In this document: positions 1-25,614 of the stretch, piece by piece
How positions within the stretch are numbered: position 1 is the stretch's first letter
Layout of the letters: each line of letters opens with the position of its first letter
Assembly: GCF_900103415.1 (NCBI RefSeq)
Contig: NZ_FMXB01000021.1
Span: 1-36,631, forward strand
Length of the DNA stretch: 36,631 nt
Origin: Methanobrevibacter millerae
GTDB lineage: Archaea; Methanobacteriota; Methanobacteria; Methanobacteriales; Methanobacteriaceae
Reading direction: 5' to 3'
Program-made: the position numbers and the translations under genes
Notes under the pieces: model-generated
Told to the model about the DNA's origin: nothing
Databases searched by the model: none
Seen by the model: the letters and a program-made list of their open reading frames with translations, nothing else

Positions 1-1
1 A

Positions 2-637: not shown

Positions 638-646
638 TAGATAGTT

Positions 647-1822: not shown

Positions 1823-2353
1823 TTTTACGTACTATCGAAAACGAAGAGAAAAATCATTTATGAATTAAATAAATCAATGTATTGGGCGAAAATGAGAAAA
1901 TGCCTGAGTATGATTAGAAAATAGGGGAGATTTTTTCAAATTTACTTTTTTCTAAACTCCATTAATACATTGCTGTTAATTTTATAGTCTATTAATATAA
2001 TTAAGTTAATATTATACTTTAAATGAGAATTTATCGTTTTTTAGAATTTATCAACCATAAGTTGAAAAAATCAATATTGCCTTTAAATGATTTTTTCGAT
2101 TCCCATTCATTTATTCTAACAGACCTTCCACTGAAGAAAAATTGGAATAAATTCAGTTCCTCGAAAAATTCGAACAACTCACCAGATAAAAATAACCGCA
2201 CCATAATCTGGTGAAGATTTCTACCCATTTTAATTAAAGAAACAACTGATAAAATCAATACTTGTTAATGAAAGTAGATGAATAATTAATGCAAATCTTA
2301 AAATAATTAATCGTTAATTGAAAAACACTAAATTAAAATTAATAATGGTATAT
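1823..2353. other. AT-rich spacer without a convincing gene
   Basis: This 531-base stretch separates the TPR gene from the 3' end of ALP1. A T-rich run around 1931-1958 could end the TPR transcript. Short overlapping reading frames on both strands (2023-2214 plus, 2031-2258 minus) lack a good ribosome site and resemble nothing I know. An eight-base inverted repeat, CACCAGAT at 2180-2187 and ATCTGGTG at 2206-2213, and a small hairpin TCGAA-AAA-TTCGA at 2161-2173 are the only structures I see. It could be decayed sequence or hold a small RNA; neither is supported. Confidence 0.5.
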
Positions 2354-2392
2354 GAAAAAATAAAAAAAGAGAGAAGTTAATTAAAACTTCTC
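2354..2392 (-). terminator. Hairpin and T-tract terminator of ALP1
   Basis: Read on the minus strand, eleven bases after the ALP1 stop codon there is a perfect eight-base stem, GAGAAGTT and AACTTCTC (plus-strand 2371-2378 and 2385-2392) with a six-base loop. It is followed by two T runs interrupted by single bases (plus-strand A runs at 2362-2368 and 2355-2360). This fits an intrinsic terminator; in archaea the T-tract alone is often enough. Confidence 0.75.
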
Positions 2393-2403
2393 ATGCTTAA
2401 TAC

Positions 2404-5400
2404 CTAAGCGGTTACAGTTACGTTGTTGGAGATTGCTGCTGCTCCGTAAGTAGCCGTAATGATGTATTTGCCAGGCATTAAGTTAATGTTTAATTTTGCA
2501 ACACCATTGCTGTCGGTTGTACGTTTGTAGAATACACCGTTAATGTTGAATTCGATTTCCTGATTAGCGTATGGCTTACCTTGACCGTCAACTAATGTGG
2601 CTTCGTAAGCACCAGCAACACCGTATTTCTTGGTTAAATCATTACCGGTTAATACAGGCAATACTGTAATATTGTTGGAAACTCTGCATCCTTTATACTC
2701 AGCAGTGATTATGTAGTCACCAGGGTTTAAGTTGATTGAGAGTTTTACTTGACCGCTTTCGTTGACTGTACGGTTGTAGAATACTCCGTTGATGTTGAAG
2801 GTTACAACGGTTCCGGCAGCAGCGACTTTACCGTCATCGCCTAAAACAGTAATCACATATTGTGATTCGTTTCTGAAGTATTTTACAAGGTCGTTTGCAT
2901 CTACAAATCTTGACAGGACAGTTATTGTGTTGTTTTTGACTTCTCCGGTTACAGGGTTGGTAATGACAATAGTGTAGTTACCAGCTTCCAGGTTGATGTT
3001 CATTCCTGCTTTACCGTTTGCGTCAGTTACTCTTGTGTAGACGTTGCCGTTTAATTCGAATGTTACGTTAGCGTTAGCTAATGGTTTTCCTTCAGCGTCT
3101 GTGAAGTTGGCTTCGAATCTGTCAGGAGCCTTTTCGACTTTGACCAAGTCTTCAGAGAAGATTGTTTCTTCAGGAGCTTCGACAGTAATCGTTGCAGTAG
3201 CGTTTGCTGAATCGTATTTCTTATCCCCTGTGTAGATAACGCTTACGGTATGGTTACCAGGAGCGAGTTCAGGCAATTCAAATGAAGCGGTTCCGTTTTC
3301 AACAGGAGCCCATGCAGTATGACCGTCAACGTCAGCTAAAACATATCCGGTTGCGTCTTCAGGCAAGGTCACTTCAATACCGTTTTCACTGATGTTAATG
3401 TCAGCTTTAGGATCGACTGGAGTGTCGTTCTTGCCGGATGAAGGAACTGTGATTGCAACGGTTGTGTTAGAAGGAGCGAATATGTCGTCACCGGTGTAGG
3501 TAACTTCAGCTTGATATTCGCCTTCGTCCAATCCGATAACTTCAATGGTAGCCTGACCGTCTTCGATAGGAGCGTAGTAACCTGTACCGTCAACGTCAAC
3601 TAAAACAATACCGGTAGCGTTTTCGTTAACGGTTACGGTAATTGTAGTGTTTTGAGCTGTTGCGGTTAGGTTAGCGTCTTCAGGTTCGATTTCAGGAACT
3701 TCCAAGGTTACTGTGTCGTTTGCAGGTGCGAAGATTTCGTCACCTAAGTAGCTGACGTCAACAGTGTAGTTTCCTGGGAAGAAAATGTCAATTACAATGT
3801 CTTCGCCATCGAATTCGAAGAACATGTCATCGTCGTCGTTTAATGTGACGAGAACGTAACCTGTTGCGTTTTCATTTAATGAAATTGTTACGGTAGCGTT
3901 TTCAGCAGTGACTTTGAGTTCAGGGTCTAAAGGTACGTATTCAGGAACTGTCACTTTAGCAGTAGCGTTGGCTGAATCGAAAACATCATCGCCCATGTAG
4001 GTAACGATAACCTCATATGTATCAGGAGCTAAATCACTTGCATCAACAATAATTGGAGCATCTTCAGCATCATAAATGAAACTGAATTCACCAACACTTA
4101 CAATTAACATGCCGGTTGCGTTTTCATTGATAGTTACAGTGATTGTAGTGTTTTCAACTGATACGGCTAATTCAGGGTTTTCCGGAACGACTTCAGGAAC
4201 CGTTACGGTAGAATTAGCAGTAGCATTAGCGAAAGTATCATCACCAGTGTATCTGACGACAACATCATAAGTTCCAGGAGCGAAATCGCTCACATCAATA
4301 ATGATAGGAGCGTCTTCAGTAATATTAATGAATACAAAGTCTCCGACACGAACAAGAATAGCACCGGTAGCGTTTTCATTAATTGTTACGGTAATTTCTG
4401 TACCGTTGACATTTAATTTGAGTTCTGGATCTAATGGTTCAGATACATTAATTGGAACTTCAAATGAAGCAGCGTTATAGTTATCGTCACCTAAGTATGT
4501 TACTTCAGCAGTGTAATTGCCAGGTGCTAATTCAGGAATATAAATAACAGCAGTACCATCTTCAACTTCTGCATAGTAACCTTTGCCGTTTACTTTAGCT
4601 AAAACGATACCTGTTGCATCAGCAGGTAAAGTTAAGGTAAGTGTTGATTCTTCAATGTCTGCAATTACTTCATAGTCAATTTCAGCATCTGCTTTGATGA
4701 TTTCAAATACTGTTTCAGCATAAGCAGGTCCATAGGAACCGCTACCAGGATAAGCTACGCTTACAGTGTAGTTGCCAGCAGCTAATTTACTAACATTCCA
4801 TGTTGCAACACCGTTATCAATAGGAACTTCATTAATTTCTCCATTGAAGTAGATAGTTACATTTCCAATTGCATCTTCAGCAATAGTTACAGTAATGATT
4901 TCATCATCGAATACCGTGAGGTTTTCTGCTGCAACAGACATGTTTGCGTCACATCCTAAAGCGTATAACTTTTTATCAGCAACAGCATAAATAATACCAT
5001 TGTAATCCATAGCTAATTGACCGGAGACTTTTGAACCTAAGTTAATAGTCCATAATAATTCACCGTCAGCACTGATAGCTACAACATCACCGGCAGCAGT
5101 ACTTACGTAAACATTGCTGTCAGCATCAAGAATAATACTTACACCACTAGCATTGAGAGCGTAAACTTCGCTTTCAGCACCATTATTTGCAGTATCATAT
5201 TTGTATAAGGTTCCGTTAGCATTTACTGCATATAATAATCCGTTTTCATTGTCAACAGCGAGAGTTGTTCCAATACCGTCTGTTACGGTTACATTCCATA
5301 CAATGCCTTCAATGTTAATTGCATAAATTCCATTAAGAGCAGGGTCTAAAACATAAGCAATGTTATTGGAATCAATTACAGCTCTTCCAACAGGTTTAAT

Positions 5401-8400
5401 GCTGGTATCACTGAATACAGCAGTATCGGTTGCAATTTCGACTATTTTGAATCCTTGAACGGTATTTGCATAAACATATCCGTTTTTATCAAATGAAGGA
5501 GTTGCTACAACACCCGGTGAACCATATCCGACACCATTAACTTCTACGATGAATGTTCCGTCAGAAACAGGAAGGCCTTGATAATCAGGTTCATTAGTGA
5601 ATATGTCAATCCAGTGGTTTCCATTCCAGCCACCACCATTGTTATATCCGTATTGGGTTACGACATATACTTTTCCATCCATAAATACAGGAGCATATGA
5701 ACTTGAAGCATACCAGAAGTTACCGCCAATGCTTTTACCTGTAGTTGCATCCAGAATAATCATTGCATTTCCAGATTGAGAATCAAATATTAATTCGTCG
5801 TTATAAATTGCAAGACCTGCAGTACCTACACCGCCAGTCCATCTTAAAGTACCGTCATTATTGAATGAATATACCTTAGAACCGTCAGTTAAGTAAATAT
5901 TTCCAAATGAATCAATGACAACTGATGAACGTAAATCACCGTTTAAAGCAGCACCCCATATTATGGATACTCCATCTCCACGGGTAGCATTTGCAATTCC
6001 GCTGTTTTGAGGATCATTACCCACATTAGGCCATTGTGAAGTTCTAGGGATGTAAATTGAAGCAGTACCATTATTTCCAAGATATTTATCATTACCATCA
6101 TATGCAACGATAACATCATATGAACCAGGTACCAATTTATCGAATGTTACACTGCCAGTACCGTTTTCGATAGTGCCTTCAGCAATAGTTTCATTGTTTA
6201 TAATTACAGCGTATTTACCGGTAGCATCGTCAATAGGAGTGTAATCATCGAATTCATAATAATCCTCAACTTCATCAGCAGTAATCATGACATCAATAAC
6301 AATTTTATCTTCTCCAATGTTTACGTTAGTAGCCACATTAGGGACGATAATTGCTTTAAATGTAGCATTGACCTCATCATAAGTATTATCACCAGTGAAT
6401 GTTAAGATAATGTCGTGAGTACCTGGAGCAATGCGCATTAATCCGAAGACATAGAAACCATCAGTATCATAAGCTGCGAAATAATTTCTCCAAAGCCCAA
6501 GTTCTTCCCCATCACAGTAACATTTAAATGGATTTCCAGTAGTTGTAATATTTGTATTATTATAAGCTAAATTAAAGATAAATTGTCCCATATCTCCACT
6601 ATTAAATATTAATTCTTCAGGAACATCAACAAATTCAACAGGTAATTTTGAAATATCTGCAGTAACATTACCTTCAGCAGGCATGAATGCATCATTACCT
6701 TCGAAAGTAGCAACAATGACCTGTTCGCCGCCAGGAAGAGTAGTAGTCCATTCAGCAGCGGTTCCGTTAACAGGAACAACTTGGATTAAATCGCCAACAG
6801 TGAAAATGATATTACCTTCAACAGTTTCATTCAATGTTGCAGTGATTGTTACATTGTCTAAAACTGAGAAGTTGCCTTCAGGAACAGTTACTTCAATAGA
6901 AATTGGATCTCTGTAACCAATAGCGAATAATGTTTTGTCAACTACAGCGTAAATGGTTCCGTCTTGAGCCATAGCTAAGCTGCCTGAACCTTTTGAGCCT
7001 AAGCTAATATTCCATAATAGGTTTCCTTCATTATCGAATGCGTAAAGGTTACCTTCTTTATCGTTTATGTAGACTTTACCGTCACCATCAATGATAATGG
7101 ATATTGCGGTAGCATTAATATTATATACTTCACTTACTTCCTGAGTTTCAGTGTCTATTTTATATACAATACCGTCAGTATTTACAGTGTAAAGAGCACC
7201 GTTTTCTGAATCAACTGCTAAAACGTCACCGCTGCTATTTGTAATGGTAACGTTCCATAAAGGACCTTCAATGGTAAATGCAACAATAGTGTTGTCTTTT
7301 GCAAATGCGTATGCGATATTGCTGTCATCAACAACTACACGTCCGCTGGTTGCAATGTCCGGAGATGAGAATATAATACTACGGTCTGCAAGTTTTGCAA
7401 CTTTAAGTCCTTGTTCAGTTACTGCATATACATATCCATTGTCGTCGAATGTAGGAGAACTTATTAAAGGACTATCAATGAACATATTATAACAGTCAGC
7501 CCACATGGTTCCATCATATTGTTCAGCGTATTCAGTCCATCCTAAATATCCACCATACTCCCATTGAGATGCAATATACACTTTATCATCAGTATAGACT
7601 ACAGGAGCATAGTTACTGGATAAATGCCACATATTACCTGCTACCTGTTTACCAGTCGTTACATCATAAACGCGTAATGCATTACCGGTTTGTGGGTTGA
7701 TAAGATATTGGTCCATGAATATTGCAATACCCGGTGCACCTTCACCAATTCTGAATATTTGAACACCGTCTTCACTAAACCCATAAACGGCTCCGGCCCA
7801 GAAATAGACATTTCCTCTTGAATCGATTACTGGAGATGCGCGTAAATCATTAGATACTGTTGAATTCCAAATGATGAATACATTATCTGAACGGGTAGCG
7901 TTAGTGCTGCCGGTATTTTTATAATCATTTCCTAAGTTAGTCCATTGGGAAGTTCCCGGAGTGATTAAAGTTACTTTTTCAGTGAATGTGTAGTTATTTC
8001 CATTATTAGCATATTCCCAAATAAATTCATAAATATGTTCGCCTTCGCTTACATTTCTTAATTCAAACTCTGGGTAATAATAACTCCTGAAACTAACATT
8101 ACCTAACTCTTCACCATTTTCTACAATATGTATTATTCCCGGACCATTTGGTTCTGTATTGAAAGAGAACAGTATATTGTTTTCAGTAATTCTGGTTTGA
8201 ACTTGAAGATTTGGAGTACTTTGAAGCAAAATCTCAATTTCAGCTCCTTCATATACAGAATCACCTGAATATTTGATTATTCTTGTTTCATTCATTAATG
8301 AATCATAAGGATCAAGCCAACCTTCCCATGTTAAAGTTGCTTTACCCTCAGAATCTAAGTCGGCAGAACTTGGCCAATCATAACTAAATGGACAAGTAAT

Positions 8401-11358
8401 ACTTCCTGTTGGAATTGGACCGTCTTCACTGCCCACAACAATTACATCAAATCTCTTATCAGTTCTGAATTGTTTAATGATAACTGGATCCACAATTAAA
8501 GTGACAGGTAATTTAAAAATACTTACCGTATCATTTGCACTACCTTTTTCAAAGTACATATCACCATTAAATGTTACAGTTAAATTGTAGGTTCCATTGC
8601 GTAAATCATTAAATGTTTCCTTTGCAACACCATTATTTAAATTTAAATCTCTTGAAATTGTGTTTGGACCTTCAAATTTAACATTGATTCTTCCTGTAGG
8701 GTTACCGTATTCATTTGTAAGATTAAATGTGAAAACAGTTCCTTCCTGAGTAATATTGAAAGTAACATTATGTTTAGTTAAATCTAATGTATCAATTAAA
8801 GAAGAAGGATTATGATTTTTATCACCAGTATAAGTAATATTTACACCATATATTCCGCTTGGTAATGTTTTGAGAGCTGGAATATTATACATTACACTAG
8901 TTCCACCAAATGAATTAACATAACCTGCGATATCAGCCTTAAAACCTCCGGTTGGTTGTACTTTATCATCCGTAATTCTAATTGTAACATAAGCATTGGA
9001 ATTAATAGTGTAAGTTATTGTAACTTCACCTTTTTCTATTTCAAACTTATTGTTTGATTTTACTTTATCAGACATAGGCACATAATTAGGATCACCAGAA
9101 TAATAACAATAAATATCATAAATTCCAGCATCCATATTGCTTCCAACATCTAATATTGCAACACCGTTTTCAAAAGTAACATCGAATTTTGTATTATTAA
9201 TGAATATTGCTCCTTTACCATTAACAAGGCCATTATCCCCTAATGCATATACAATAATCTTACCATCATCACCAACAGTAGTATTTTCAACATATATTGC
9301 ATCAATAGAAGTAATATTACCTAAAGCAAGAGTATACTCTACAGTATAATCATCAACTGTTGCAGTGATTTTACTTTCACTAGTAATATCGGAAGTGTAT
9401 GTAACGGTAGCTACACCATCAATTAATGCAGGTTCGGTTTCATTAACGTCTCCGGTTAATGTAATTTCTCTTAAAGGCAAAGCATTAATATCAGGAATGT
9501 CTCCCATATCAGAATCTTTCATGAATCCTGCTTTTACAGTAGTGCCTTCATTATATACACTTAACATTAAATATTTGTTAGGTATAGAAAGTTCATCGTT
9601 TAATCTTACTAATTTATCCGGTTCATTGGTTGCATACCAGTTGTATTCTTCAACAACATTTTTGTAATTATCTCTTAATCTGATTTGGGTAGTATCGTCA
9701 TAGAATACATTATATGAGATTGTTCCTTTACCGTCACCTTCATAGTAAATTGTAGGCCAATCATTGTCTGCATAATTATCATCGAATATACAGCCGATAA
9801 TATTTGCAACACGTGTTTGAATGGCTCCAACACCATTAGTTGCAGTGTTATTGATGAAAGTACAGTTTACAATATTATTGTTGGAATTAGAACCCACTGA
9901 GTAAATAGCGCCAGCTCTAGCTTCCCTACCTTCAAAATCATTATTAATAGCTTTATTACCTTTAAATACAGTATTAGTAACATTTAAATTTACATAATCT
10001 CTACAATAGATAGCTCCACCATATTGTTGGCTAGCTCTCCACCATCTTCCAGCATCTTTTGGAACATCAGTATTATTTTCAAATACTGAATCTTTAATTG
10101 TTAAAGTGGTTCTTTCATAAGCGTGAATTGCACCACCATTAGCTTCACTATTTTTTAAAGTGTTACCGACAAAAGTACAATTTTCAATAGTTAAACTACC
10201 GGTACGCAAATAGATTGCACCACCATGATCAGAAGTAGCAAGACCACCAGTAATAGTTAAATTGTTTAAAACTACATTAGCATTTTCATTATCTTTAATA
10301 TAGAATATTCTTACTAAATCAGTACCATTAATGGTGTAACCGTTACCATTGATAGTAAGATTTTTGTTAATTACGATACCATCTTTAAATAGGTTGACTT
10401 CATAAGGGTCTAAAACAATATTATAAGTTAAATTTACAACATCATTATCAGCAATCATATTATTTAAGTCAGAAAACATTCCTGGTGCGGGAATGAAAAT
10501 TGTATCTTCCCATGTTAATCCTGCAGTTGTATTACCATCAAGAACAACTTTTATATTATGGACCCCCAATTTTTTTTCAAATGTAACTGAAGCATTACCA
10601 TTTTCATCGACAGTACCATTAGCTACTGATTCAGTATCGGAATACACTGTGAAATTACCCGGTCCATCATTTGTCGTAATATTGACAGCTATAACATCCC
10701 CAATTGAAACTGTAGCTTCTACTTTTCTAGGTGGATAAAGAACTATTGTTACATTTTGAGAAAATGTTCTATTAGCATTATAAATAACAAGTTCATAAGT
10801 TCCTTCTTTTAAATCAGAATCTACCGGATAATCTGCATAACTATTAAGATATCTTAACTGAACGCCCTGATAATCCCCATCAGGATTTCTCCAAGGATTT
10901 CTACTATGATCCCAAGAACTTCCAGCAAAATCGTAATCAGAGTTTGTTTCATCCAAGGTTATTAAATTATTATTTTCATCAAAAGCCTGGAAATAAACTG
11001 TATTATATCTAAATCCATAATCTTCATAAGATCTGCCTTCAGGAGTTTCTTTAAAAGTAATTACGCCATCAACAGCATCCTTAAATTCAATTCTAGTTAA
11101 TTGACCATCACCAATTATTTCTTCATCCCCACTAACCCCCAATAGTTGAGAGCTATCTGAGTCATTCGTATCTATGTTATCATCACAAACATAGTCAAAT
11201 TCATCATTTCCCTCATCCAAGTCAATAGGACTTGATAAAGAAATGTCTGAATTTGAATCAATTTCTGCGTCAATATCAGCAGCACTGACAGCGCCAATAC
11301 TTAAAACCAATATTAACAGTATAGAAATAAATAAAAACTTAGACTTCATATTTACCAT
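2404..11358 (-). CDS. ALP1: giant secreted adhesin-like protein with beta-helix, two PQQ-like beta-propellers and Ig-like repeats
   Basis: A 2984-residue extracellular protein, probably wall-associated and involved in binding; the ligand is unknown. Domains in order: signal peptide, residues 1-27 (cleavage near AVSA-A); an unrecognised beta-rich N domain, about 70-290; right-handed parallel beta-helix, about 294-575, with turns such as GGAIY and IENCTF; four or five Ig-like modules, about 600-1130; PQQ/BamB-like propeller 1, about 1136-1480, opening TSQWTNLGND; a short Ig-like linker; propeller 2, about 1773-2134, opening TSQWPNVGND; an array of about eight Ig-like repeats of the Big_3 type with NENATG and Y-x-GDD motifs; a C-terminal triplet, 2736-2984, shared with ALP2-ALP5. 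There is no C-terminal membrane helix, LPxTG or archaeal sorting tail. The start is uncertain: ATG at 11358 lacks a ribosome site, and the fourth codon, ATG at 11349 (MKSKFLF), is equally likely. GC is much higher in the last third than in neighbouring genes. No residues pointing to an enzyme are visible. Confidence 0.93.
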   Translation of the reverse strand: MVNMKSKFLFISILLILVLSIGAVSAADIDAEIDSNSDISLSSPIDLDEGNDEFDYVCDDNIDTNDSDSSQLLGVSGDEEIIGDGQLTRIEFKDAVDGVITFKETPEGRSYEDYGFRYNTVYFQAFDENNNLITLDETNSDYDFAGSSWDHSRNPWRNPDGDYQGVQLRYLNSYADYPVDSDLKEGTYELVIYNANRTFSQNVTIVLYPPRKVEATVSIGDVIAVNITTNDGPGNFTVYSDTESVANGTVDENGNASVTFEKKLGVHNIKVVLDGNTTAGLTWEDTIFIPAPGMFSDLNNMIADNDVVNLTYNIVLDPYEVNLFKDGIVINKNLTINGNGYTINGTDLVRIFYIKDNENANVVLNNLTITGGLATSDHGGAIYLRTGSLTIENCTFVGNTLKNSEANGGAIHAYERTTLTIKDSVFENNTDVPKDAGRWWRASQQYGGAIYCRDYVNLNVTNTVFKGNKAINNDFEGREARAGAIYSVGSNSNNNIVNCTFINNTATNGVGAIQTRVANIIGCIFDDNYADNDWPTIYYEGDGKGTISYNVFYDDTTQIRLRDNYKNVVEEYNWYATNEPDKLVRLNDELSIPNKYLMLSVYNEGTTVKAGFMKDSDMGDIPDINALPLREITLTGDVNETEPALIDGVATVTYTSDITSESKITATVDDYTVEYTLALGNITSIDAIYVENTTVGDDGKIIVYALGDNGLVNGKGAIFINNTKFDVTFENGVAILDVGSNMDAGIYDIYCYYSGDPNYVPMSDKVKSNNKFEIEKGEVTITYTINSNAYVTIRITDDKVQPTGGFKADIAGYVNSFGGTSVMYNIPALKTLPSGIYGVNITYTGDKNHNPSSLIDTLDLTKHNVTFNITQEGTVFTFNLTNEYGNPTGRINVKFEGPNTISRDLNLNNGVAKETFNDLRNGTYNLTVTFNGDMYFEKGSANDTVSIFKLPVTLIVDPVIIKQFRTDKRFDVIVVGSEDGPIPTGSITCPFSYDWPSSADLDSEGKATLTWEGWLDPYDSLMNETRIIKYSGDSVYEGAEIEILLQSTPNLQVQTRITENNILFSFNTEPNGPGIIHIVENGEELGNVSFRSYYYPEFELRNVSEGEHIYEFIWEYANNGNNYTFTEKVTLITPGTSQWTNLGNDYKNTGSTNATRSDNVFIIWNSTVSNDLRASPVIDSRGNVYFWAGAVYGFSEDGVQIFRIGEGAPGIAIFMDQYLINPQTGNALRVYDVTTGKQVAGNMWHLSSNYAPVVYTDDKVYIASQWEYGGYLGWTEYAEQYDGTMWADCYNMFIDSPLISSPTFDDNGYVYAVTEQGLKVAKLADRSIIFSSPDIATSGRVVVDDSNIAYAFAKDNTIVAFTIEGPLWNVTITNSSGDVLAVDSENGALYTVNTDGIVYKIDTETQEVSEVYNINATAISIIIDGDGKVYINDKEGNLYAFDNEGNLLWNISLGSKGSGSLAMAQDGTIYAVVDKTLFAIGYRDPISIEVTVPEGNFSVLDNVTITATLNETVEGNIIFTVGDLIQVVPVNGTAAEWTTTLPGGEQVIVATFEGNDAFMPAEGNVTADISKLPVEFVDVPEELIFNSGDMGQFIFNLAYNNTNITTTGNPFKCYCDGEELGLWRNYFAAYDTDGFYVFGLMRIAPGTHDIILTFTGDNTYDEVNATFKAIIVPNVATNVNIGEDKIVIDVMITADEVEDYYEFDDYTPIDDATGKYAVIINNETIAEGTIENGTGSVTFDKLVPGSYDVIVAYDGNDKYLGNNGTASIYIPRTSQWPNVGNDPQNSGIANATRGDGVSIIWGAALNGDLRSSVVIDSFGNIYLTDGSKVYSFNNDGTLRWTGGVGTAGLAIYNDELIFDSQSGNAMIILDATTGKSIGGNFWYASSSYAPVFMDGKVYVVTQYGYNNGGGWNGNHWIDIFTNEPDYQGLPVSDGTFIVEVNGVGYGSPGVVATPSFDKNGYVYANTVQGFKIVEIATDTAVFSDTSIKPVGRAVIDSNNIAYVLDPALNGIYAINIEGIVWNVTVTDGIGTTLAVDNENGLLYAVNANGTLYKYDTANNGAESEVYALNASGVSIILDADSNVYVSTAAGDVVAISADGELLWTINLGSKVSGQLAMDYNGIIYAVADKKLYALGCDANMSVAAENLTVFDDEIITVTIAEDAIGNVTIYFNGEINEVPIDNGVATWNVSKLAAGNYTVSVAYPGSGSYGPAYAETVFEIIKADAEIDYEVIADIEESTLTLTLPADATGIVLAKVNGKGYYAEVEDGTAVIYIPELAPGNYTAEVTYLGDDNYNAASFEVPINVSEPLDPELKLNVNGTEITVTINENATGAILVRVGDFVFINITEDAPIIIDVSDFAPGTYDVVVRYTGDDTFANATANSTVTVPEVVPENPELAVSVENTTITVTINENATGMLIVSVGEFSFIYDAEDAPIIVDASDLAPDTYEVIVTYMGDDVFDSANATAKVTVPEYVPLDPELKVTAENATVTISLNENATGYVLVTLNDDDDMFFEFDGEDIVIDIFFPGNYTVDVSYLGDEIFAPANDTVTLEVPEIEPEDANLTATAQNTTITVTVNENATGIVLVDVDGTGYYAPIEDGQATIEVIGLDEGEYQAEVTYTGDDIFAPSNTTVAITVPSSGKNDTPVDPKADINISENGIEVTLPEDATGYVLADVDGHTAWAPVENGTASFELPELAPGNHTVSVIYTGDKKYDSANATATITVEAPEETIFSEDLVKVEKAPDRFEANFTDAEGKPLANANVTFELNGNVYTRVTDANGKAGMNINLEAGNYTIVITNPVTGEVKNNTITVLSRFVDANDLVKYFRNESQYVITVLGDDGKVAAAGTVVTFNINGVFYNRTVNESGQVKLSINLNPGDYIITAEYKGCRVSNNITVLPVLTGNDLTKKYGVAGAYEATLVDGQGKPYANQEIEFNINGVFYKRTTDSNGVAKLNINLMPGKYIITATYGAAAISNNVTVTA
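2407..3153 (-). repeat. C-terminal triplet of about 83-residue modules in ALP1
   Basis: Three tandem modules beginning EDLVKV, NDLVKYF and NDLTKKYG. Each has a core like F-N-I-N-G-V-F-Y-x-R and ends in a G-x-Y-I-I-T strand. They correspond one-to-one, in the same order, with the last three modules of ALP2, ALP3 and ALP4. The middle one holds the only cysteine (residue 2891, codon at 2686-2688), matching GCQASN in the paralogues. Conservation of order and of this end position suggests a terminal function such as wall attachment or secretion; this is inference. Confidence 0.8.
3157..4940 (-). repeat. Array of about eight Ig-like (Big_3-type) repeats in ALP1
   Basis: Residues of about 2140-2735 form tandem modules of 75-90 residues. 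Each contains a motif like T-V-N-E-N-A-T-G followed by V-x-V, a short acidic loop (for example EDGTAVIY), a P-G-N-Y-T turn and Y-x-GDD-x-F/Y-x-x-A before the final strand and a VPE linker. This is the pattern of Big_3-family bacterial Ig-like domains common in ALPs. The array probably acts as a stalk between the second propeller and the C-terminal triplet. Confidence 0.8.
4945..7953 (-). repeat. Duplicated PQQ-like beta-propeller pair inside ALP1
   Basis: Two copies, about 6915-7953 and 4945-6042, share matching landmarks in the same order: TSQW-x-N-x-GND, then VIDS-x-GN, Y-A-x-T-x-QG, LAVD-x-ENG and W-N/T-I-x-LGSK before a closing K-x-L-x-A strand. Each copy is about 350 residues, enough for a six- to eight-bladed propeller. 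An Ig-like linker separates them. The copies have diverged, so the duplication is old. Propellers of this class bind ligands or proteins; I see no PQQ-dependent dehydrogenase active-site context. Confidence 0.75.
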
Positions 11359-11687
11359 CTATATACTTTTTTCATGTAATTTCAATTAGAATTATTATTC
11401 AAGTAAAACTTAAATTAAAGAAAATTTAATTGATTACACGAATAGATATATGTCAATATTAATATATAAAACTATTCAATTGAACTTAATAATTGATAAA
11501 ATAATTTACAATAATATCAATTCACTCATAACCCCATTATTCATTCAAATATGGAATTAATTACAAACAAAAATATAATAATATAGTTTTTTCAAATTAA
11601 AATGAATTTTAGTAAAAAATATTAATTAATAAGTCAATAAAATTTTAATAATATAAAATTAATTTTTAATCAAATAAGGTGTGCAAA
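11359..11687. promoter_or_regulatory. Divergent promoter region between ALP1 and ALP2
   Basis: This 329-base spacer drives both directions. GC is extremely low (7 of 60 bases in 11461-11520). For ALP1 the best TATA-like box on the minus strand is TTTTATATATT (plus-strand 11461-11471), which would give a leader of about 80 bases; the palindrome TTCAATTGAA at 11475-11484 lies just upstream of it. For ALP2, boxes around 11614-11628 and 11643-11660 are possible, but the AT-richness makes any choice uncertain. The spacer does not share the 48-base element found upstream of ALP3 and ALP4. Confidence 0.5.
11677..11681 (+). promoter_or_regulatory. Ribosome-binding site of ALP2 (AGGTG)
   Basis: AGGTG matches the archaeal anti-Shine-Dalgarno and lies six bases before the ATG at 11688. 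An in-frame GTG at 11679 overlaps this site and would add three residues (MCK); it is more likely part of the ribosome site than the start codon. Confidence 0.7.
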
Positions 11688-14600
11688 ATGAGAAAAATAA
11701 TTCTAATTTCAATAATATTATGTACATTGCTATCCATAAGTTGCGTAAATGCAATTGAAGATATTAATGCTACATCAGATAATAATAGCCCAGATGAAGA
11801 ATGTATTTTAACAACCCCTATAGATGAAAATGAAAGCGAAGTGCTAGGATATGGGACTTATAACGGTCTTAATAATGAACCTGCATGGACAATAAACAAT
11901 TATGAAATAAAAATTAATAAAATCAATTCGGCAGATAATGTTGAAATTTTTCTTAATTTTTCGGGAATTACACATGTGACTGAATTTACTTTAGACGATT
12001 TTCCAGCATATATTGTGGAAAACGAAGAAACAATTGGAAAAGTACCTCTTTCAACAGTATCAAATAAAAATTATCCAACAACCATTGGCGCACCTTACTC
12101 ATTTAATGCGACATTTAATTATGCTTTAAAAAATTATGATACTGAATTAAAGGTAAAATTATGTAGTTTAGATTCAAATACTCTTATTTTCCATGAAAAC
12201 GAATTTATTTCACTTAGCAAATTAACTGATAATTCTATTGTGATTATAAATGAAAATGGCGAAATCATAACTTCCAATTCAAGTTGGACAAATTCAATTG
12301 ATTCACTGGAAAATGCAATAAAACTTGCTAATAATAACAGTACAATATACTTAAATGATTTGACACTATATTCGGATAAAATAAAGAATACAATTGAAAT
12401 AACAAAAAATATCACCATAATAGGAAAAAACGCAAGAATTAACGGGTTAGACAATGATTATCTTATTAATATAACATCAAATGTCAACTTTAAAAACATA
12501 ATTTTTGAAAACACATATGACTATATAATAAATGTTGAAAATGAATGTATTTTAGATAATTGTACTTTCACAGACACTTATGGAAAAGCAATTAACAATA
12601 ACGGCAAATTGAAAATAATAAATTCAAAATTCAGTGAAATTAAAAAATTTCAAACATTATCAAAATGGAAAACACTTGATAACAATGTAACTTCTTTAAT
12701 TTATAATCAAAATGAATTAGAAATCATTAATACGACTTTTAATGATATTATTTTACCTAAAAAAATAAAAATCATTAAAGATAAAATTGCCACACAAATT
12801 AGTAGCCCATCAGTAATATATAATGCCAATAATGCTTCAATAAACATCACAAACTCCATATTTGATAAAATTGACGCTAAATTAATGATTAATGACGGAA
12901 AAATATTTATAAATGATTGTAATTTCACAGAAATAAATGTGCAAACCCCAAATCTCGAGATAATACCTGATAAAGAGACCATTTTACAAACTTCAAGAGT
13001 CTATTCATATAAATTAAGATGGGACGATGAAGTGACAACAGGCCCGATTTATTCAAGCAACTTAATAAGCATTAATAATTCTAATTTTACAAATATTTCC
13101 CTGAAAGCTAACCGTTTTAGATCTTATACTGAAGGCTATGCTAAATTCGATTATTTTGTTAACAATAAAGATTATACAATTTATCTTAGGAAAGTCAAAA
13201 CAAACAATGAGTTTGAAGGCGGAATAATCTACAATACTGGAAAATTAGTGTTAACACAAACCAATATTGAAAATGCGGTAGCAACATCGGCCGGAGCGAT
13301 ATATAATACAGGAAATGCGACTATTGACGGATTAAATACTAATAATATACAGGCATTTTGGGGAACCGGCGGAGCAATAATAACAAAAGGAGAAATGAAT
13401 ATTAAAAATTCATATTTTAACAATAGTATTTTAGATATTACCCATACACAACTCGCCGGAGGTACAATTTATAATAATGGTGAATTAATAATAGAAAACA
13501 CCATTATAAATAAAACTCATGCATCAAACATGAGAGGCGGAGCAATATTCAATGAAGGAGAATTAAATATTAGTCATTCTGCTATAATCGGAAGTAGTGC
13601 ATATGATAAAGGGGGAGCAATATTCAATGACGGAACATTGAATGTTAATTCAACACTTTTTGAAGAATGTTCCGGTTCATATGGAGTTATCGACAATAAA
13701 GAAAATAGAAATGCTACGATATATAATTCATCTTTTATAAATTGTAAAATTGGATTAGATCAAAGTTATCCTGCAAGATATGTGGGAATAATTCTAAACG
13801 AAGGAAATATGCTATTTGAAAGAAATATTATTGACTTTAAAAATTATAAAGCAGATAGCGGTTCAGGAACATGGGGTATCCACAATAATGGAAAAATAAA
13901 AATATACCACAATCTATTCATAAACACTAACACGACAACAATAGTTGATAGATGGGGAGATGAATCAAAAAACATTGTCATATTCATAATTAATGAAGGT
14001 GGAGAAACAGATGTTGCTTATAACTACTTTGACACGAATGAGGACCCATATAATCATTTCTCAACAGCCCCTGTTGGCCATTATTTTGTTTTTGATGTAG
14101 AACAGGAATACTACCCACTTCAAATCGGAGAAAAAATAAATATCACAACAACATTGAAACTGGACAATGGAAAATACTATGAAAACTACGAATTACTCCC
14201 AAACATGACCGTCGAATTCACAATAACTGGAAACAATGAAAAACAAATAATCTATGCCCCATTGGTAAATGGAAAAGCAAGCATAGAATTCAATAAAACA
14301 GAAGCCAAAGGATCATACGATGTAACAGCAAGAATAGGATACTGCATCAAAGAAGTTGAAATAGACATCGGCAAAAACTACTCACAAATGGACGTGAAAG
14401 CAGAAGAAATCACATATCCAGAAAATGCAACATTCTACATGACCGTTACAGGAAACTTAACGCATCAACCAACAGGAAAAATCTCAGTAATAGTGGATGG
14501 AACAAAATACACAACAAATATTAAAAATACAAAAGCTCAACTAACAATTCCTGGATTAATTCCAAATACATATGACTTAATAATCCGTTACGAAGGGGAT

Positions 14601-17600
14601 GAAGACTATTTCAAGTCATTTTACCACCATAACTACACTGTCCACAAACAGCCAACAAGCATGAACATATCAATAGATGAAATTAACTATGGCGAAATAG
14701 GAATAGTGAAAGTTACATTATCACCGGAAAAAGTCTCAACACAAGCATATCTTTATATCATTGATGAAAACAACCAAACAACAAGAAAAACAGTCTATGT
14801 AAGAAACGGGACAGAACTGAAACTTAAAAACTTCGCAGCCGGAGAATACAACATAACAATAGAGACCTGGGAAAACAGATACTATGAATCAGCTAATGCT
14901 ACAGCAGTATTTAAAGTAAACAAATACCTGACAAATCTCACAATTAATGCAACTGACATTAATGCCGGCGAAATACAAAAATTAATAATTACCTTGCTGC
15001 CGAAAGGAGAGGTAGCTGGAGAAGCTAACCTCACGATAAACAATTACACGCAAATAATTTTCCTTAAAAACGGAGAAAATACAATAACAATAAAAAATCT
15101 CAGTGGAGGAATATACAACGTGACAGTGACATTTCCTGGAGATAAAAAATATGCAGCATTCACTGCAACAACAACATTCACTGTAATAAAACTTCAAAGT
15201 AACATTACTGCAAAAATAGAAAACAACATACTATACATTAATGCAACCCCAAACACAACCGGACTGGTGTTAATATACATTAATGATGACATTTATGAAG
15301 TTAATTTGACAAACAGCCAAATAATATTGCCAATTAACTTCACAAAAGCGGAAAACAATATATTCATTTATTATCAAGGAGATGGATACTACAATTACTC
15401 AATGACAAATTTAACATACGAATGTGAAGAATTATTGAATTTAACTGGATATGATTCATTATTCTACAATACAGAGAATGCAACAATATATATTACATTA
15501 ACGGATGAGGAAGGATATGGAATAGCAAACAAAACAATCACAATAGCGGTTAATAATGAAACATACACCAGAATAACCGGAAATGATGGAAGTGTAGAAT
15601 TAGAACTAGACTTACCGGTGGGAAGCTATGAAATAACCGCACAATACAGAAACAAAACAACAAAAAATAACATTAAAGTTATAGAAGATGCATTTATCCT
15701 AGGAAACGATACAAAAGCCTATGAAAATGTTGATTTCACATATACATTAATATTGGTCGACCACAATGAAACACCAATCATTAACGCTGAAATCACATTC
15801 AACTTTGAAAACAGGACATTCACCAATAAAACAGACAACAGCGGAAAAATAACACTGAACTTTAACCTGAAAGAAGGAAACTACACCATAACAAGCTCAT
15901 ACAAAACAGTCAACCACACAAACCAGATAATAATCGTTGACGACTCACATCTAATGGGAAATGACGTTAAAGCCTATTCAGGAACCAATTTTACATATAA
16001 AACAAAATTAACTGACCACAACAACAATCCAATAGAAAACGCCGAAATAACTTACACTATTGGAAATGAAACATTTACTAATACGACAAACGATAAAGGA
16101 GAATCAACACTAACATTTAACTTAGAAACTGGAAACTACACTATAATAGCTAAATATAAAAATAGAACTATTGAAAATACCTTTGAAATAATCGAAGACT
16201 ATATTTTAAGAGGAAATGATGTTAAAGCGTTTTCAGAAACTAACTTTACTTACAGAGTTAACTTAACAGACCACAACGGGAAAACAATCCAAAACGCAGA
16301 AATCACATTCAATATCAATGGAGAAAACTACACGAATACGACCAATAATAACGGCCAAGCTGTGTTAAACCTCAATTTAAAAGGTGGAAACTATATAATA
16401 ACCGTTAATTACAGAAACACATCAACCACAAATAACATTGAGATTGTTGAAGACTTCTTATTAATTGGTAATGATGTTAAAGCTTATGCGGAATATAATT
16501 TCACATACAGAGTTAATTTAACCGACCATAACGGAAATTTCGTGAAAGGTGCAGAAATCATATTTTCAATTGAAAATAAAACATTTACAAATAAAACAAA
16601 TGCTAATGGTCAAGCAATATTAACTTTAAGCCTCAAGGAAGGAAATTACACAATAACTGCGGCTTATAAAAATACAACGACCACAAACAATCTGGAAATC
16701 ATTGAAGACCACCAGATAACTGGTCAAAACATCAAAGCATACGAAAACACAGATTTCACATACACCATAACACTTACAAGAACGGATGGTACACCGCTAA
16801 TAAACAAAACAATAACCTTCATAATAAACAACAGAAGATACACTAACACAACGAATGAAGAAGGAAAAGCTTCAAGAACGCTTAATTTACCTGCAAACAA
16901 CTACACAATAACTGCAATATACAAAAACACCCAAATAACAAATAATCTAACGATAATAAGTGAAGATTATGTCCTTCAGGCAAATAATATACGAGCTTAC
17001 AGTCAAAGAGATTTCCAATACAAAGTAAACCTAACCGACCACAACGGAAATCCAGTTAAAAATGCTGAAATAACATTTAAAATGGATAACTTAACCTATT
17101 CAAACAAGACAAATGATAACGGTCAAGCAATATTAAACTTAAACCTTGAAAAAGGAAACTACACAATAAACGCCAGGTATAATGATGCGAAAATAACAAA
17201 TCACTTTGAAATCATTGAAACCTACACATTAAAAGGAATCAATGTGAAATCCTACGAAAACTTTGACTTCAGATACACTGTAAAATTAACAGACCACAAC
17301 AATAAAACAATATCCAACCAAGAAATAGTATTTACAATTGAAAATAAAACCTATACAAACAAAACTGATTCAAATGGTCAGGCCACATTAACATTGAACC
17401 TTAAAGAAGGAAACTATACAATTTCAGCCAAATATCAGGACATTACAACAACTAATCAGTTAAATATCATAAAATATGATTTGGAAAGAATAGAAAGTGA
17501 CGATTTAACAATGTATTACAAAGACGGATCCAAATTCACAGCAAGACTCATGAAAGATAACACGGCATTAATTAACAAAACAGTGCAATTCATAATTAAT

Positions 17601-18494
17601 GGAAACACTTACAGCAGAACAACAGATAATGAAGGTAATGCAAGAATCGCAATAAACCTCAACAGCGGAACACACAATATCACAAGCAAATACAAGAACA
17701 TTACAAAAACAAACACAATAACAATCAAATCAACAATAAACGGTTCAGACATTGTAAAAATGCATAAAAACGACACACAATACTATGCAACATTCTACAA
17801 CACCAAAGGAGAACCACTCAAAAACATAGACATACAATTCAACATAAACGGAGTATTATACACAAGAACAACCAACGAACAGGGAATAGCTAAAATGAAC
17901 ATCAACCTAAACCCAGGAAAATACATAATAACCGCAATAAACCCTAACAGCACAGAACAACACACAAACACAATTACAGTAATCTCAAAAATACAGGAAA
18001 ACAATGATTTAACCAAATACTACAAAAACAACTCACAATATGTGGCTAAAATCATAAAAACCGACGGAACAACAGCAAAAGCAGGTGAAAAAGTAACGTT
18101 CAACATCAACGGAGTATTTTATGAAAGATACACCAACGAAACAGGCCATGTTAAAATGAACATCAACCTAAACCCGGGAGAATACATTATTACTGCAGAC
18201 TACGAAGGATGTCAAGCATCAAATAAAATAACCGTACTCCCAACGTTAACGGCTAAGGATTTAACCAAAAAATACGGAACGAAAGAACCTTTCGAAGTAA
18301 AACTGGTTAACGGACAAGGAAAAGCATACACAAACGAAAAAATAACATTCAACATCAACGGAGTATTCTACGAAAGAACAACCAACGATGAGGGAATAGC
18401 TAAACTAAACATAAACCTAATGCCCGGCAAATACATAATAACCTCCACACACAACGGGCTAAACATAGCAAACACAGTCACAGTCAAAGAATAA
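11688..18494 (+). CDS. ALP2: adhesin-like protein with variable beta-helix head and 12-module stalk
   Basis: A 2268-residue secreted protein. Signal peptide 1-22, ending C-V-N-A. Residues of about 50-195 form an N domain of unknown type that only ALP3 shares. A long right-handed beta-helix spans about 200-790, with turns such as GGAIFNEG and ITNSIF. Five Ig-like modules follow at about 799-1245, one with the Big_3 signature GDEDYFKSF. Twelve modules of about 85 residues fill 1249-2268, each with an L-T-D-H-N-G turn, N-G-Q-A and G-N-Y-T-I. They resemble invasin-type Ig-like or carboxypeptidase-regulatory-like domains. There is no membrane anchor, LPxTG or pseudomurein-binding repeat that I recognise. 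The head suits carbohydrate binding or cleavage, but no catalytic residues are evident. I chose ATG 11688 for its AGGTG site. It is the first gene of the tandem family; its shared part is mosaic relative to ALP3 and ALP5. Confidence 0.95.
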   Translation: MRKIILISIILCTLLSISCVNAIEDINATSDNNSPDEECILTTPIDENESEVLGYGTYNGLNNEPAWTINNYEIKINKINSADNVEIFLNFSGITHVTEFTLDDFPAYIVENEETIGKVPLSTVSNKNYPTTIGAPYSFNATFNYALKNYDTELKVKLCSLDSNTLIFHENEFISLSKLTDNSIVIINENGEIITSNSSWTNSIDSLENAIKLANNNSTIYLNDLTLYSDKIKNTIEITKNITIIGKNARINGLDNDYLINITSNVNFKNIIFENTYDYIINVENECILDNCTFTDTYGKAINNNGKLKIINSKFSEIKKFQTLSKWKTLDNNVTSLIYNQNELEIINTTFNDIILPKKIKIIKDKIATQISSPSVIYNANNASINITNSIFDKIDAKLMINDGKIFINDCNFTEINVQTPNLEIIPDKETILQTSRVYSYKLRWDDEVTTGPIYSSNLISINNSNFTNISLKANRFRSYTEGYAKFDYFVNNKDYTIYLRKVKTNNEFEGGIIYNTGKLVLTQTNIENAVATSAGAIYNTGNATIDGLNTNNIQAFWGTGGAIITKGEMNIKNSYFNNSILDITHTQLAGGTIYNNGELIIENTIINKTHASNMRGGAIFNEGELNISHSAIIGSSAYDKGGAIFNDGTLNVNSTLFEECSGSYGVIDNKENRNATIYNSSFINCKIGLDQSYPARYVGIILNEGNMLFERNIIDFKNYKADSGSGTWGIHNNGKIKIYHNLFINTNTTTIVDRWGDESKNIVIFIINEGGETDVAYNYFDTNEDPYNHFSTAPVGHYFVFDVEQEYYPLQIGEKINITTTLKLDNGKYYENYELLPNMTVEFTITGNNEKQIIYAPLVNGKASIEFNKTEAKGSYDVTARIGYCIKEVEIDIGKNYSQMDVKAEEITYPENATFYMTVTGNLTHQPTGKISVIVDGTKYTTNIKNTKAQLTIPGLIPNTYDLIIRYEGDEDYFKSFYHHNYTVHKQPTSMNISIDEINYGEIGIVKVTLSPEKVSTQAYLYIIDENNQTTRKTVYVRNGTELKLKNFAAGEYNITIETWENRYYESANATAVFKVNKYLTNLTINATDINAGEIQKLIITLLPKGEVAGEANLTINNYTQIIFLKNGENTITIKNLSGGIYNVTVTFPGDKKYAAFTATTTFTVIKLQSNITAKIENNILYINATPNTTGLVLIYINDDIYEVNLTNSQIILPINFTKAENNIFIYYQGDGYYNYSMTNLTYECEELLNLTGYDSLFYNTENATIYITLTDEEGYGIANKTITIAVNNETYTRITGNDGSVELELDLPVGSYEITAQYRNKTTKNNIKVIEDAFILGNDTKAYENVDFTYTLILVDHNETPIINAEITFNFENRTFTNKTDNSGKITLNFNLKEGNYTITSSYKTVNHTNQIIIVDDSHLMGNDVKAYSGTNFTYKTKLTDHNNNPIENAEITYTIGNETFTNTTNDKGESTLTFNLETGNYTIIAKYKNRTIENTFEIIEDYILRGNDVKAFSETNFTYRVNLTDHNGKTIQNAEITFNINGENYTNTTNNNGQAVLNLNLKGGNYIITVNYRNTSTTNNIEIVEDFLLIGNDVKAYAEYNFTYRVNLTDHNGNFVKGAEIIFSIENKTFTNKTNANGQAILTLSLKEGNYTITAAYKNTTTTNNLEIIEDHQITGQNIKAYENTDFTYTITLTRTDGTPLINKTITFIINNRRYTNTTNEEGKASRTLNLPANNYTITAIYKNTQITNNLTIISEDYVLQANNIRAYSQRDFQYKVNLTDHNGNPVKNAEITFKMDNLTYSNKTNDNGQAILNLNLEKGNYTINARYNDAKITNHFEIIETYTLKGINVKSYENFDFRYTVKLTDHNNKTISNQEIVFTIENKTYTNKTDSNGQATLTLNLKEGNYTISAKYQDITTTNQLNIIKYDLERIESDDLTMYYKDGSKFTARLMKDNTALINKTVQFIINGNTYSRTTDNEGNARIAINLNSGTHNITSKYKNITKTNTITIKSTINGSDIVKMHKNDTQYYATFYNTKGEPLKNIDIQFNINGVLYTRTTNEQGIAKMNINLNPGKYIITAINPNSTEQHTNTITVISKIQENNDLTKYYKNNSQYVAKIIKTDGTTAKAGEKVTFNINGVFYERYTNETGHVKMNINLNPGEYIITADYEGCQASNKITVLPTLTAKDLTKKYGTKEPFEVKLVNGQGKAYTNEKITFNINGVFYERTTNDEGIAKLNINLMPGKYIITSTHNGLNIANTVTVKE
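16143..16283 (+). repeat. 141-bp segment identical to one in ALP5
   Basis: These 141 bases match 35226-35366 in ALP5 exactly, across the end of stalk module 3 and the start of module 4. The equivalent part of ALP3 and ALP4 carries many silent and coding differences. I compared the copies base by base; they break at T/C on the left and A/G on the right. Confidence 0.85.
16971..17271 (+). repeat. 301-bp segment identical to one in ALP3
   Basis: These 301 bases match 23969-24269 in ALP3 exactly and cover stalk module 7 plus the opening of module 8. ALP4 and ALP5 differ in the same interval at many positions, including the coding change from KMDNLTYSNKT to the ENETF/ENEMF forms. The match ends at G/A on the right and T/C on the left. 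Confidence 0.9.
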
Positions 18495-18589: not shown

Positions 18590-18607
18590 TAATTTGAGTT
18601 GAAAAAA

Positions 18608-21600: not shown

Positions 21601-24600
21601 AGACTATTTCAAGTCATTTTATCACCATAATTACACTGTCCACAAACAGCCAACAAGCATGAACATTACCTTGAATGAGATTAATTATGGCGAAATTGGA
21701 ATAATAAAAGTAACATTATCCCCTGAAAAAGTTTCAACACAGGCATACATGTACATTACAGATGAAAACAACCAAACAACAAGAAAAACCGTCTATGTAA
21801 GAAACAGTACTGAACTGAAACTTAAAAACTTCGCAGCCGGAGAATATAACATAACAATAAGCACCTGGGAAAACAGATACTATGAATCAGCCAATGCAAC
21901 AGCAATATTTAAAGTAAACAAATACCTGACAAACTTAACTATTAATGCAACTGACATTAATGCCGGTGAAATACAAAAATTAATAATCACATTAACACCT
22001 AAAGGAGAGGTTGCTGGAGAAGCCAACCTGACGATAAACAATTACACACAAATAATATTCCTTAAAAACGGAGAAAACACAATAACAATAGAAAATCTCA
22101 CCGGAGGAATATACAACGTAACCGTAACATTCCCTGGAGATAAAAAATACGCTGCATCCACTGCAACAACAACATTCACCGTAATAAAACAGCAAAGCAA
22201 CATTACTGCAAAAATAGAAAACAACATACTATACATTAATGCAACCCCAAACACAACCGGACTGGTGTTAATATACATTAATGATGACATATACGAAGTT
22301 AATTTGACAAACAGCCAAATAGTATTCCCAATTAACTTCACAAAAGCAGAAAACAACATATTCATTTATTATCAGGGAGATAAAAACTTTAATTATTCAA
22401 TGTGTAATTTAACCTATGAATGTGAAGAATTACTGAATTTAACTGGATATGATTCATTATTCTATAATACTGAAAACGCAACAATCTATATTACATTAAC
22501 GGATGAGGAAGGATATGGAATAGCAAACAGAACAATCACGATAACCGTTAATAATGAAACATACACCAGAATAACAGAAAATGATGGAAGTGTAGAATTA
22601 GAACTAGACTTGCCAGTTGGAACATATGAAATAACCGCACAATACAGAAACAAAACGGCAACAAACACAATAAAAGTCATAGAAGACGCATTTATCCTAG
22701 GAAACGATACAAAAGCCTATGAAAATGTTGATTTCACATATACATTAATATTGGTTGACCACAATGAAACACCAATCATTAATGCAGAAATAACATTCAA
22801 CTTTGAAAACAAAACATTCACCAATAAAACAGACACGAACGGGAAAATAACACTGAATTTTAACCTGAAAGAAGGAAACTACACAATAACAAGTTCCTAT
22901 AAAACAGTCAACCACACAAATCAAATAATTATCGTTGATGACTCACATCTAATGGGAAATGATGTTAGAGCCTATTCAGGAACAAATTTCACATATAAAA
23001 CAAAATTAACTGACCACAACAACAATCCAATTGAAAACGCAACAATAACATTCACAATAGGAAATGAAACATTTATAAATAAAACTAATTCAAAAGGCGA
23101 ATCAACGCTAATATTTAACTTAGAAACTGGAAACTACACAATAACTGCCCAATATAAAAACAGAACAATTGAAAATACTTTTGAAATAATCGAAGATTAT
23201 ATATTAAGAGGAAATGACGTTAAAGCATTTTCAGAAACTGATTTCACTTACAGAGTTAATTTAACAGACCATAATGGAAAAGCAATCAAAAATGCAGAAA
23301 TCACATTTAACATCAATGGAGAAAACTACACCAATACAACAAACAATAACGGCCAAGCAGTGTTAAACCTCAATTTAAAAGGTGGAAACTATATAATAAC
23401 CATTAATTACAGAAACACGACAACCACAAATAACATTGAGATTGTAGAAGACTTCTTATTAATTGGTAATGATGTTAAAGCTTATGCAGAAGATAACATC
23501 ACTTACAGAGTTAATTTAACAGACCATAATGGAAAAACGATAACCAATGCAGAAATCAACTTCACAATCAATAACATGACTTATCTAAATAAAACCGATG
23601 ATAATGGTCAAGCCACATTAACTTTAAGCCTCAAGGAAGGAAACTACACAATAACTGCAACCTACAAAAATACAACGACCACAAACAATCTGGAAATCAT
23701 AGAAGACCATCAAATAACTGGTCAAAACATCAAAGCCTACGAAAACACAGATTTCACATACACAATAACGCTTACAAGAACAGACGGTACGCCACTGACA
23801 AACAAAACAATCACATTCATAATAAACAACAGAAGATACACAAACGTGACAAATGAAGAAGGAAAAGCTTCAAGAACGCTTAATTTACCTGCAAACAACT
23901 ACACAATAACAGCAATATACAAAAACACACAAATAACAAATAATCTAACGATAATAAGCGAAGATTACGTCCTTCAGGCAAATAATATACGAGCTTACAG
24001 TCAAAGAGATTTCCAATACAAAGTAAACCTAACCGACCACAACGGAAATCCAGTTAAAAATGCTGAAATAACATTTAAAATGGATAACTTAACCTATTCA
24101 AACAAGACAAATGATAACGGTCAAGCAATATTAAACTTAAACCTTGAAAAAGGAAACTACACAATAAACGCCAGGTATAATGATGCGAAAATAACAAATC
24201 ACTTTGAAATCATTGAAACCTACACATTAAAAGGAATCAATGTGAAATCCTACGAAAACTTTGACTTCAAATACAGTGTAAAATTAACAAACCACAACAA
24301 TAAAACAATGTCAAACGAAGAAATAACATTTACGATTGAAAATAAAACATACACTAACAAAACAGACATTAATGGGCAAGCCACATTAACATTGAACCTT
24401 AAAGAAGGAAACTACACAATAACGACCAAATATGCAGACACCACAACAACCAATCAGTTAAACATCATAAAATATGATTTGGAAATAATGGAAAGTGACG
24501 ATTTAACAATGTATTACAAAGACGGATCTAAATTCACAGCAAGACTTTTAAAAGATAGTACCCCATTAATTAACAAAACTGTACAATTTATAATTAATGG

Positions 24601-25594: not shown

Positions 25595-25614
25595 GTAAAG
25601 TTGAGGATTTGAAT

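Follow-up and report, generated by a model that had tools for sequence, protein, structure and literature searches.

Introduction

The M1-C domain was described as a C-terminal domain, weakly Big_1-like, common to 44 adhesin-like proteins of Methanobrevibacter ruminantium M1, and its attachment to the cell wall was a proposal rather than a demonstration (Leahy et al., 2010; PMC2812497). Pseudomurein-binding (PMB) domains are found at either end of a protein or in its middle (PMC3124540), and in PeiP and PeiW, two phage lysins, wall binding requires the four pseudomurein-binding repeats (PMBRs) at the N-terminus (PMC6189367). In the accessible part of a 2024 survey of M. smithii adhesins, membrane helices are considered as anchors and the unit treated here is not discussed. 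The giant adhesins of gut methanogens serve as targets for vaccines meant to lower ruminant methane, and they make up most of the vesicle cargo of human-gut methanogens; the present analysis bears on how these proteins are held on the pseudomurein wall.

In this study, we analyzed a 36,631-nucleotide stretch of the Methanobrevibacter millerae genome (NZ_FMXB01000021.1, positions 1 to 36,631; hereafter the window). A reading of these letters without database searches (the sequence-only reading) had noticed a three-module unit at the end of unlike adhesin-like proteins, and had taken it for a candidate new attachment or export module, possibly with a cysteine-based link.

Results and Discussion

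A common C-terminal unit in the adhesin-like genes of the window

The adhesin-like genes of the window and their modules are listed in Table 1. Module parsing identified three Ig-like modules, C1-C2-C3, as the final 248 residues of ALP1 (2407-3150, minus strand), and ALP2-ALP4 share these modules in the same order, as the sequence-only reading had it. At matching positions, ALP1 and ALP2 are 43% (C1), 63% (C2) and 64% (C3) identical, while the modules within ALP1 show 35-47% identity to each other. Outside the modules the two proteins resemble each other over short stretches at 22-32% identity, the signal-peptide region excepted, which agrees with the earlier view that they are otherwise unlike. 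Translation also confirmed the motifs that had been listed, with DLTKKYG and MPGKYIIT located in C3, FNINGVFY in both C2 and C3, and a single cysteine in the middle module of ALP1. The description of the unit as a triplet is right for ALP1; most proteins, including ALP2-ALP4, end in a quartet with the additional module C0.

The window stops where a run of 480 Ns begins (contig positions 36632-37111), and this run interrupts ALP5. The C2-C3 end of ALP5 resumes past the gap at contig positions 37271-37498 in a different frame, but this change of frame should not be read as a real frameshift because the assembly gap lies between. Other adhesin genes, on contigs C3, C16 and C24, are likewise interrupted by N-runs.

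Table 1. Positions of the adhesin-like genes and cassette modules in the window.
Feature	Position	Strand	Length	Remarks
ALP1 gene	2404..11358	-	2984 aa	stop codon at 2404; layout: signal peptide, beta-helix-like region, Big_3_5 repeats, PQQ/propeller domains, then C1-C2-C3
ALP1 signal peptide	11278..11358	-		MVNMKSKFLFISILLILVLSIGAVSAA; called by sequence and heuristic test
ALP1 module C1	2893..3150	-	86 aa	
ALP1 module C2	2641..2892	-	84 aa	middle module; lone Cys
ALP1 C2 Cys codon	2686..2688	-		TGC, within YKGCRVSN
ALP1 module C3	2407..2640	-	78 aa	last module; flush with stop codon
ALP2	11679..18494	+	2271 aa	C0-C1-C2-C3 at end
ALP2 quartet	17502..18491	+		C0 17502-17747, C1 17748-18005, C2 18006-18257, C3 18258-18491
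ALP3	18599-25492	+		quartet C0-C1-C2-C3 at 24500..25489
ALP4	25609-31698	+		quartet C0-C1-C2-C3 at 30706..31695
ALP5	31803..36631	+		broken by assembly gap just beyond window

Conservation and distribution of the cassette

Parsing of the source genome (2.72 Mb, 48 contigs) in the stretches around module matches revealed 57 proteins with a C-terminal cassette, usually of the four modules C0-C1-C2-C3, and these proteins stop within 0-3 residues, nearly all within 0-1, of the last strand. When models were trained on half of the cassette-ended proteins and applied to the other half, the last three modules were assigned the order C1-C2-C3 in 261 of 280 held-out trials. The mean identity among 54 clean triplets was 56.5%, compared with 25.9% for the preceding 250 aa and 23.1% for the shuffled control, and the regions upstream of the triplets split into 16 unlinked clusters; therefore, one conserved cassette sits on many unrelated bodies. 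The end unit is ordered, conserved and modular far beyond chance, and few protein ends are commoner in these genomes. The existence of a discrete modular unit on unrelated adhesin-like proteins that have no other recognizable anchor was thus borne out.

A search of 152 genomes of the phylum demonstrated that a strong match to the window-type unit usually pairs with a weak match to M1-C, and vice versa, and that some genomes carry both. In pseudomurein-walled genera with few adhesins the cassette was absent or very weak in this search, so the cassette tracks adhesins rather than the wall. The phylum search scored 18 candidates per genome and the scan of genome contigs favors close relatives, so that the counts of both are not censuses.

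Fold and sequence family

AlphaFold2 modeling of the ALP2 quartet with 45 sequences predicted four confident Ig-like domains (pLDDT 96.1, pTM 0.76), with the cysteine position located between the two final strands of C2. Sequence and fold searches pointed to generic Ig-like tandems, and the fold search told nothing beyond this; the best match was to an ice-binding RTX adhesin, in its extender domains (4p99). ALP2 (212 bits) and ALP3 (203 bits) exceeded the Big_1 cut-off (PF02369, 34.9 bits), and ALP1 fell just below it (34.2 bits, E = 2.8e-8), its best stretch being residues 2918-2983, in C3. Single cassette modules share fold and sequence family with Big_1 and Big_3_5 (PF16640), but those models cover single generic domains, whereas the cassette of the window is an ordered unit. 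Neither Pfam nor NCBIfam held a model for the window unit or for M1-C, and the pseudomurein-binding repeat model (PF09373) had no match in ALP1-ALP3.

Such a fold would also suit a structural stalk or end-cap, in which stiff Ig repeats space or protect other domains and bind no ligand. The generic tandem fold, the extender domains as best solved relatives and the standing of Big repeats as the standard stalk unit of fibrillar adhesins are all consistent with this, yet we consider it rather improbable. The order of the modules is fixed and their identity high, while neighboring Ig stalk repeats are at background; the cassette lies at the extreme end and not between anchor and tip; and, as described below, a viral lysin consists of the modules and a catalytic domain alone.

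Signal peptides, other anchors and the cysteine

All 46 C-terminal-type proteins with a readable N-terminus possess a signal-like hydrophobic segment followed by a small-x-Ala site, as called by a heuristic rather than by a trained predictor. None of these 46 proteins showed an LPxTG motif or a second membrane helix, as the sequence-only reading had stated for the window, and none has a sortase-type end (LPxTG, membrane helix, basic tail). Three adhesins lack the cassette at their end and have a membrane helix there instead, followed by a basic tail.

Other kinds of protein ends were noticed during the survey. The cassette-free adhesin-like proteins of L236:1-3060, L045:3317-5620 (minus) and L054:7788-9266 (minus) finish with a [TS]GNP[IL] motif that is followed by a membrane helix and then a basic tail, which recalls a tripartite sorting signal. 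Genes adjoining cassette adhesin genes (L061:6120-8000, minus; L042:3-1484; L070:1635-4031; L067:5130-6983) encode proteins in which a Ser-rich stretch is combined with a membrane helix at the C-terminus and a tail of the YRRK type; one of them is CobN/Mg-chelatase-like (E = 5e-64) and one has a right-handed beta-helix.

The nearly flush C-terminal stop of the cassette-ended proteins could point to a sorting or export signal or to a covalent, for example cysteine-based, attachment, comparable to type IX C-terminal domains or sortase signals. The type IX models TIGR04183 and TIGR04131 gave no match above threshold, and the sub-threshold matches to TIGR04183 (best E = 7e-4) came from some N-terminal-type proteins. 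At the C2 position, 56 paralogues have Cys (24), Leu (25), Ala (3), Ser (3) or Tyr (1), and the suggested cysteine link is unlikely because Leu replaces Cys in about half of the copies. An export role is likewise unnecessary, since ordinary signal peptides are present, one such archaeal signal being functional in E. coli (PMC4823517), and since the viral lysin that bears the modules has no signal peptide. A C-terminal sorting signal was rejected on placement, as the unit also occurs N-terminally and in mid-protein, and together these observations make sorting or covalent attachment highly improbable.

Cassettes in wall enzymes

Seventeen further proteins of the source genome have cassette modules away from the C-terminus, mostly directly after the signal peptide. 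The full four-module stretch is present in eight of them, and some have C1-like copies in the place of C2. The C-terminal partners of N-terminal cassettes include Transglut_core (four proteins), DUF4015 glycosidase-like, pseudomurein-binding repeat and Peptidase_C71-like domains. Among the stretches read in M. smithii PS, the cassette is C-terminal in 26 proteins and elsewhere in 6, and the full triplets of relatives are C-terminal in 103 cases, not C-terminal in 18 and cut by a contig edge in one. The supposition that the unit is always C-terminal therefore fails, both in the source genome and in relatives, and the mid-protein placements that the sequence-only reading had named beforehand as speaking against its proposal do occur. 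Nor is the unit mutually exclusive with known anchors, as the cassette and pseudomurein-binding repeats are found in a single protein. Because several of the enzymes also carry PMBRs, the cassette need not be their wall binder.

A 1500-aa secreted protein on contig C2 (L235:1905-6404, minus) combines an Ig cassette and a DUF4015 glycosidase-like domain with pseudomurein-binding repeats and a transglutaminase/Peptidase_C71-like domain, the Peptidase_C71 match being weak. It is a candidate wall autolysin.

The transglutaminase fusions also allow a more specific idea, in which transglutaminases secreted by the cell itself would use the cassette as a docking tag and would then cross-link adhesins covalently to pseudomurein or to one another. 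Several secreted transglutaminases carry an N-terminal cassette, and enzyme and adhesin might meet on one envelope polymer. We regard this as a long shot; if it were true, it would represent an archaeal counterpart of sortase anchoring made of Ig modules, which at least one virus would have copied into its lysin.

A viral lysin carrying the modules

The 87-kb IMG/VR viral contig IMGVR_UViG_3300028048_001915 (L243) encodes a 431-aa protein that has no signal peptide and consists of three cassette-family modules (153.7 bits with the triplet model) followed by Peptidase_C71, the pseudomurein endoisopeptidase domain (E = 1e-8). The modules are approximately 32% identical to host copies, and the gene adjoins two integrase-like genes. 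Known phage lysins such as PeiP and PeiW have their wall-binding repeats at the N-terminus, where this lysin has three Ig modules instead. This fusion is the strongest hint of envelope binding, though a single example. The cassette was not found in the endoisopeptidases of MSTV1 and vir323, nor in most of the proviral Peptidase_C71 proteins examined, so that the fusion is rare.

Two other viral matches were not retained. On viral contig L242, a tail-like protein runs into cassette modules, and the contig was discarded as a probable chimera because it has bacterial-type phage tail genes and because the modules begin mid-domain and are followed by an insertion-sequence transposase. The match in vir249, weak (29%) and close to the C-terminus of a tail-associated protein, was set aside.

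A separate feature of L243 is a series of about 10 small paralogous ORFs of approximately 150 aa (MKDxNNLLxxNxWSxxEY...) at positions 1-5463. Most of them begin with GTG on the final base of the preceding stop, and the final two, near two integrase-like genes, are encoded on the other strand. The run has the look of an array of tail-adhesin variants that can be inverted.

A proposed envelope-binding cassette

Its presence in wall enzymes and in a single viral enzyme that cuts the wall makes it probable that the block sticks proteins to the cell envelope. The explanation that we prefer, with about even confidence, is that C0-C1-C2-C3 is a Big_1-type Ig cassette that binds the cell's own envelope polymer non-covalently. 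The protein would be exported via an ordinary N-terminal signal peptide, which would then be removed, and the cassette would bind a repeated polymer of the envelope, either pseudomurein or a glycopolymer on it, with several modules at once. In adhesins, a C-terminal cassette would leave the long N-terminal part facing outward, so that the adhesin may be retained on the cell; in wall-remodeling enzymes, an N-terminal cassette would keep the C-terminal catalytic domain on its substrate.

Evidence from a tested relative and from membrane vesicles has to be weighed here. We assigned Mru_1499 of M. ruminantium M1 to L305:329-3361 (minus), because it matches the published map in its 18-aa signal peptide and in the position of its transglutaminase (879-981). 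Mru_1499 (Ng et al., 2016, via PMC9213418) has three tandem Big_1 domains after the signal peptide, PMBRs and a C-terminal transglutaminase, which is the architecture of the N-terminal-type cassette proteins of the source genome. Its N-terminal triplet is 36% identical to that of the window but lacks the KYYRN signature, and the published assays of the protein addressed adhesion to protozoa and bacteria rather than wall binding. It is reported to bind protozoa and Butyrivibrio (PMC9213418; PMC4823517), and for protozoa its first Big_1 domain is reportedly needed (PMC9213418). We also observed pseudomurein-binding repeats in it (62 bits), a match that goes unmentioned in the accessible description in PMC9213418. 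The transglutaminase-plus-PMBR layout of Mru_1499 points to a wall enzyme no less than to an adhesin.

In the vesicles of M. smithii and M. intestini, adhesin-like proteins account for 46 of 229 proteins, compared with approximately 4% of the proteins identified in the membrane fraction (PMC12134236), and vesicles also contain abundant Msm_1398, an M. smithii adhesin that ends in four Ig domains and may be one of the cassette proteins (PMC12134362).

These data count against an envelope anchor in two ways, as the Big_1 result for Mru_1499 concerns adhesion to other cells, and as vesicle enrichment of adhesins is unexpected if they are firmly held by the wall. They would agree with a cassette that acts as an adhesive tip for protozoa, H2-producing bacteria or mucus glycans, with the adhesin held otherwise, for example by an uncleaved N-terminal helix; the N-terminal helices of adhesins were indeed taken as membrane anchors by Gupta and Seedorf (PMC11532034). 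We nevertheless judge the adhesive tip to be unlikely, although the least so of the alternatives. A signal-peptidase-like site lies behind the helix in every testable protein (46/46), the cassette is highly conserved among 54 paralogues where one would expect variation in tips that meet diverse partners, and a tip would make no sense beside the signal peptide of wall enzymes or in a viral lysin. The Mru_1499 and vesicle data fit a sticky module with leaky retention, or a non-anchoring role. The attachment role suggested by the sequence-only reading stays plausible and is strengthened by the wall-enzyme and viral-lysin fusions, while a role as anchor only is opposed by Mru_1499 and the vesicles.

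Comparison with known systems

To call the cassette a new module, as had been done, overstates the case, since wall attachment through a C-terminal domain was already put forward for M1-C in 2010 and M1-C is homologous to the window unit. For this comparison, M1-C was rebuilt from the C-termini of the M. ruminantium M1 genome. Among 40 stretches of that genome, 31 proteins end in modules of the superfamily, mostly in a two-module unit, and the alignment of M1-C with C2-C3 of the window had an HHalign probability of 99.7% with 34% identity over 150 columns. Like the window unit in the 57 proteins that it ends, as opposed to the 17 that carry it elsewhere, M1-C is an adhesin end unit, flush with the stop codon, with weak Big_1 similarity and a proposed role in wall attachment. 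The rebuilt M1-C has two modules (IGFNGxVYNRTTNETG ... FTVNGKTYSAxTNSKG ... KLTIK-end), whereas the window unit has three to four modules with the signatures FNINGVFY and KYYRNxSQY, and each of them is dominant in different lineages. By their sequences, the two appear to be homologous yet distinct subfamilies.

What is new here are the N-terminal placements in enzymes, the fusion in a viral lysin and the connection with the Mru_1499 triplet, which has been tested. The occurrences in wall enzymes and in the viral lysin make the vague proposal of 2010 simply testable, and the cassette is a possible targeting domain for methanogen-specific lysins. In its use the cassette resembles the PMB domain (PF09373), which also consists of repeated modules, is placed at either protein end and occurs in wall proteins and phage endoisopeptidases (PMC3124540; PMC6189367). 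The PMBR differs from it in being a motif of 30-35 aa with unrelated sequence, and in having its pseudomurein binding experimentally shown.
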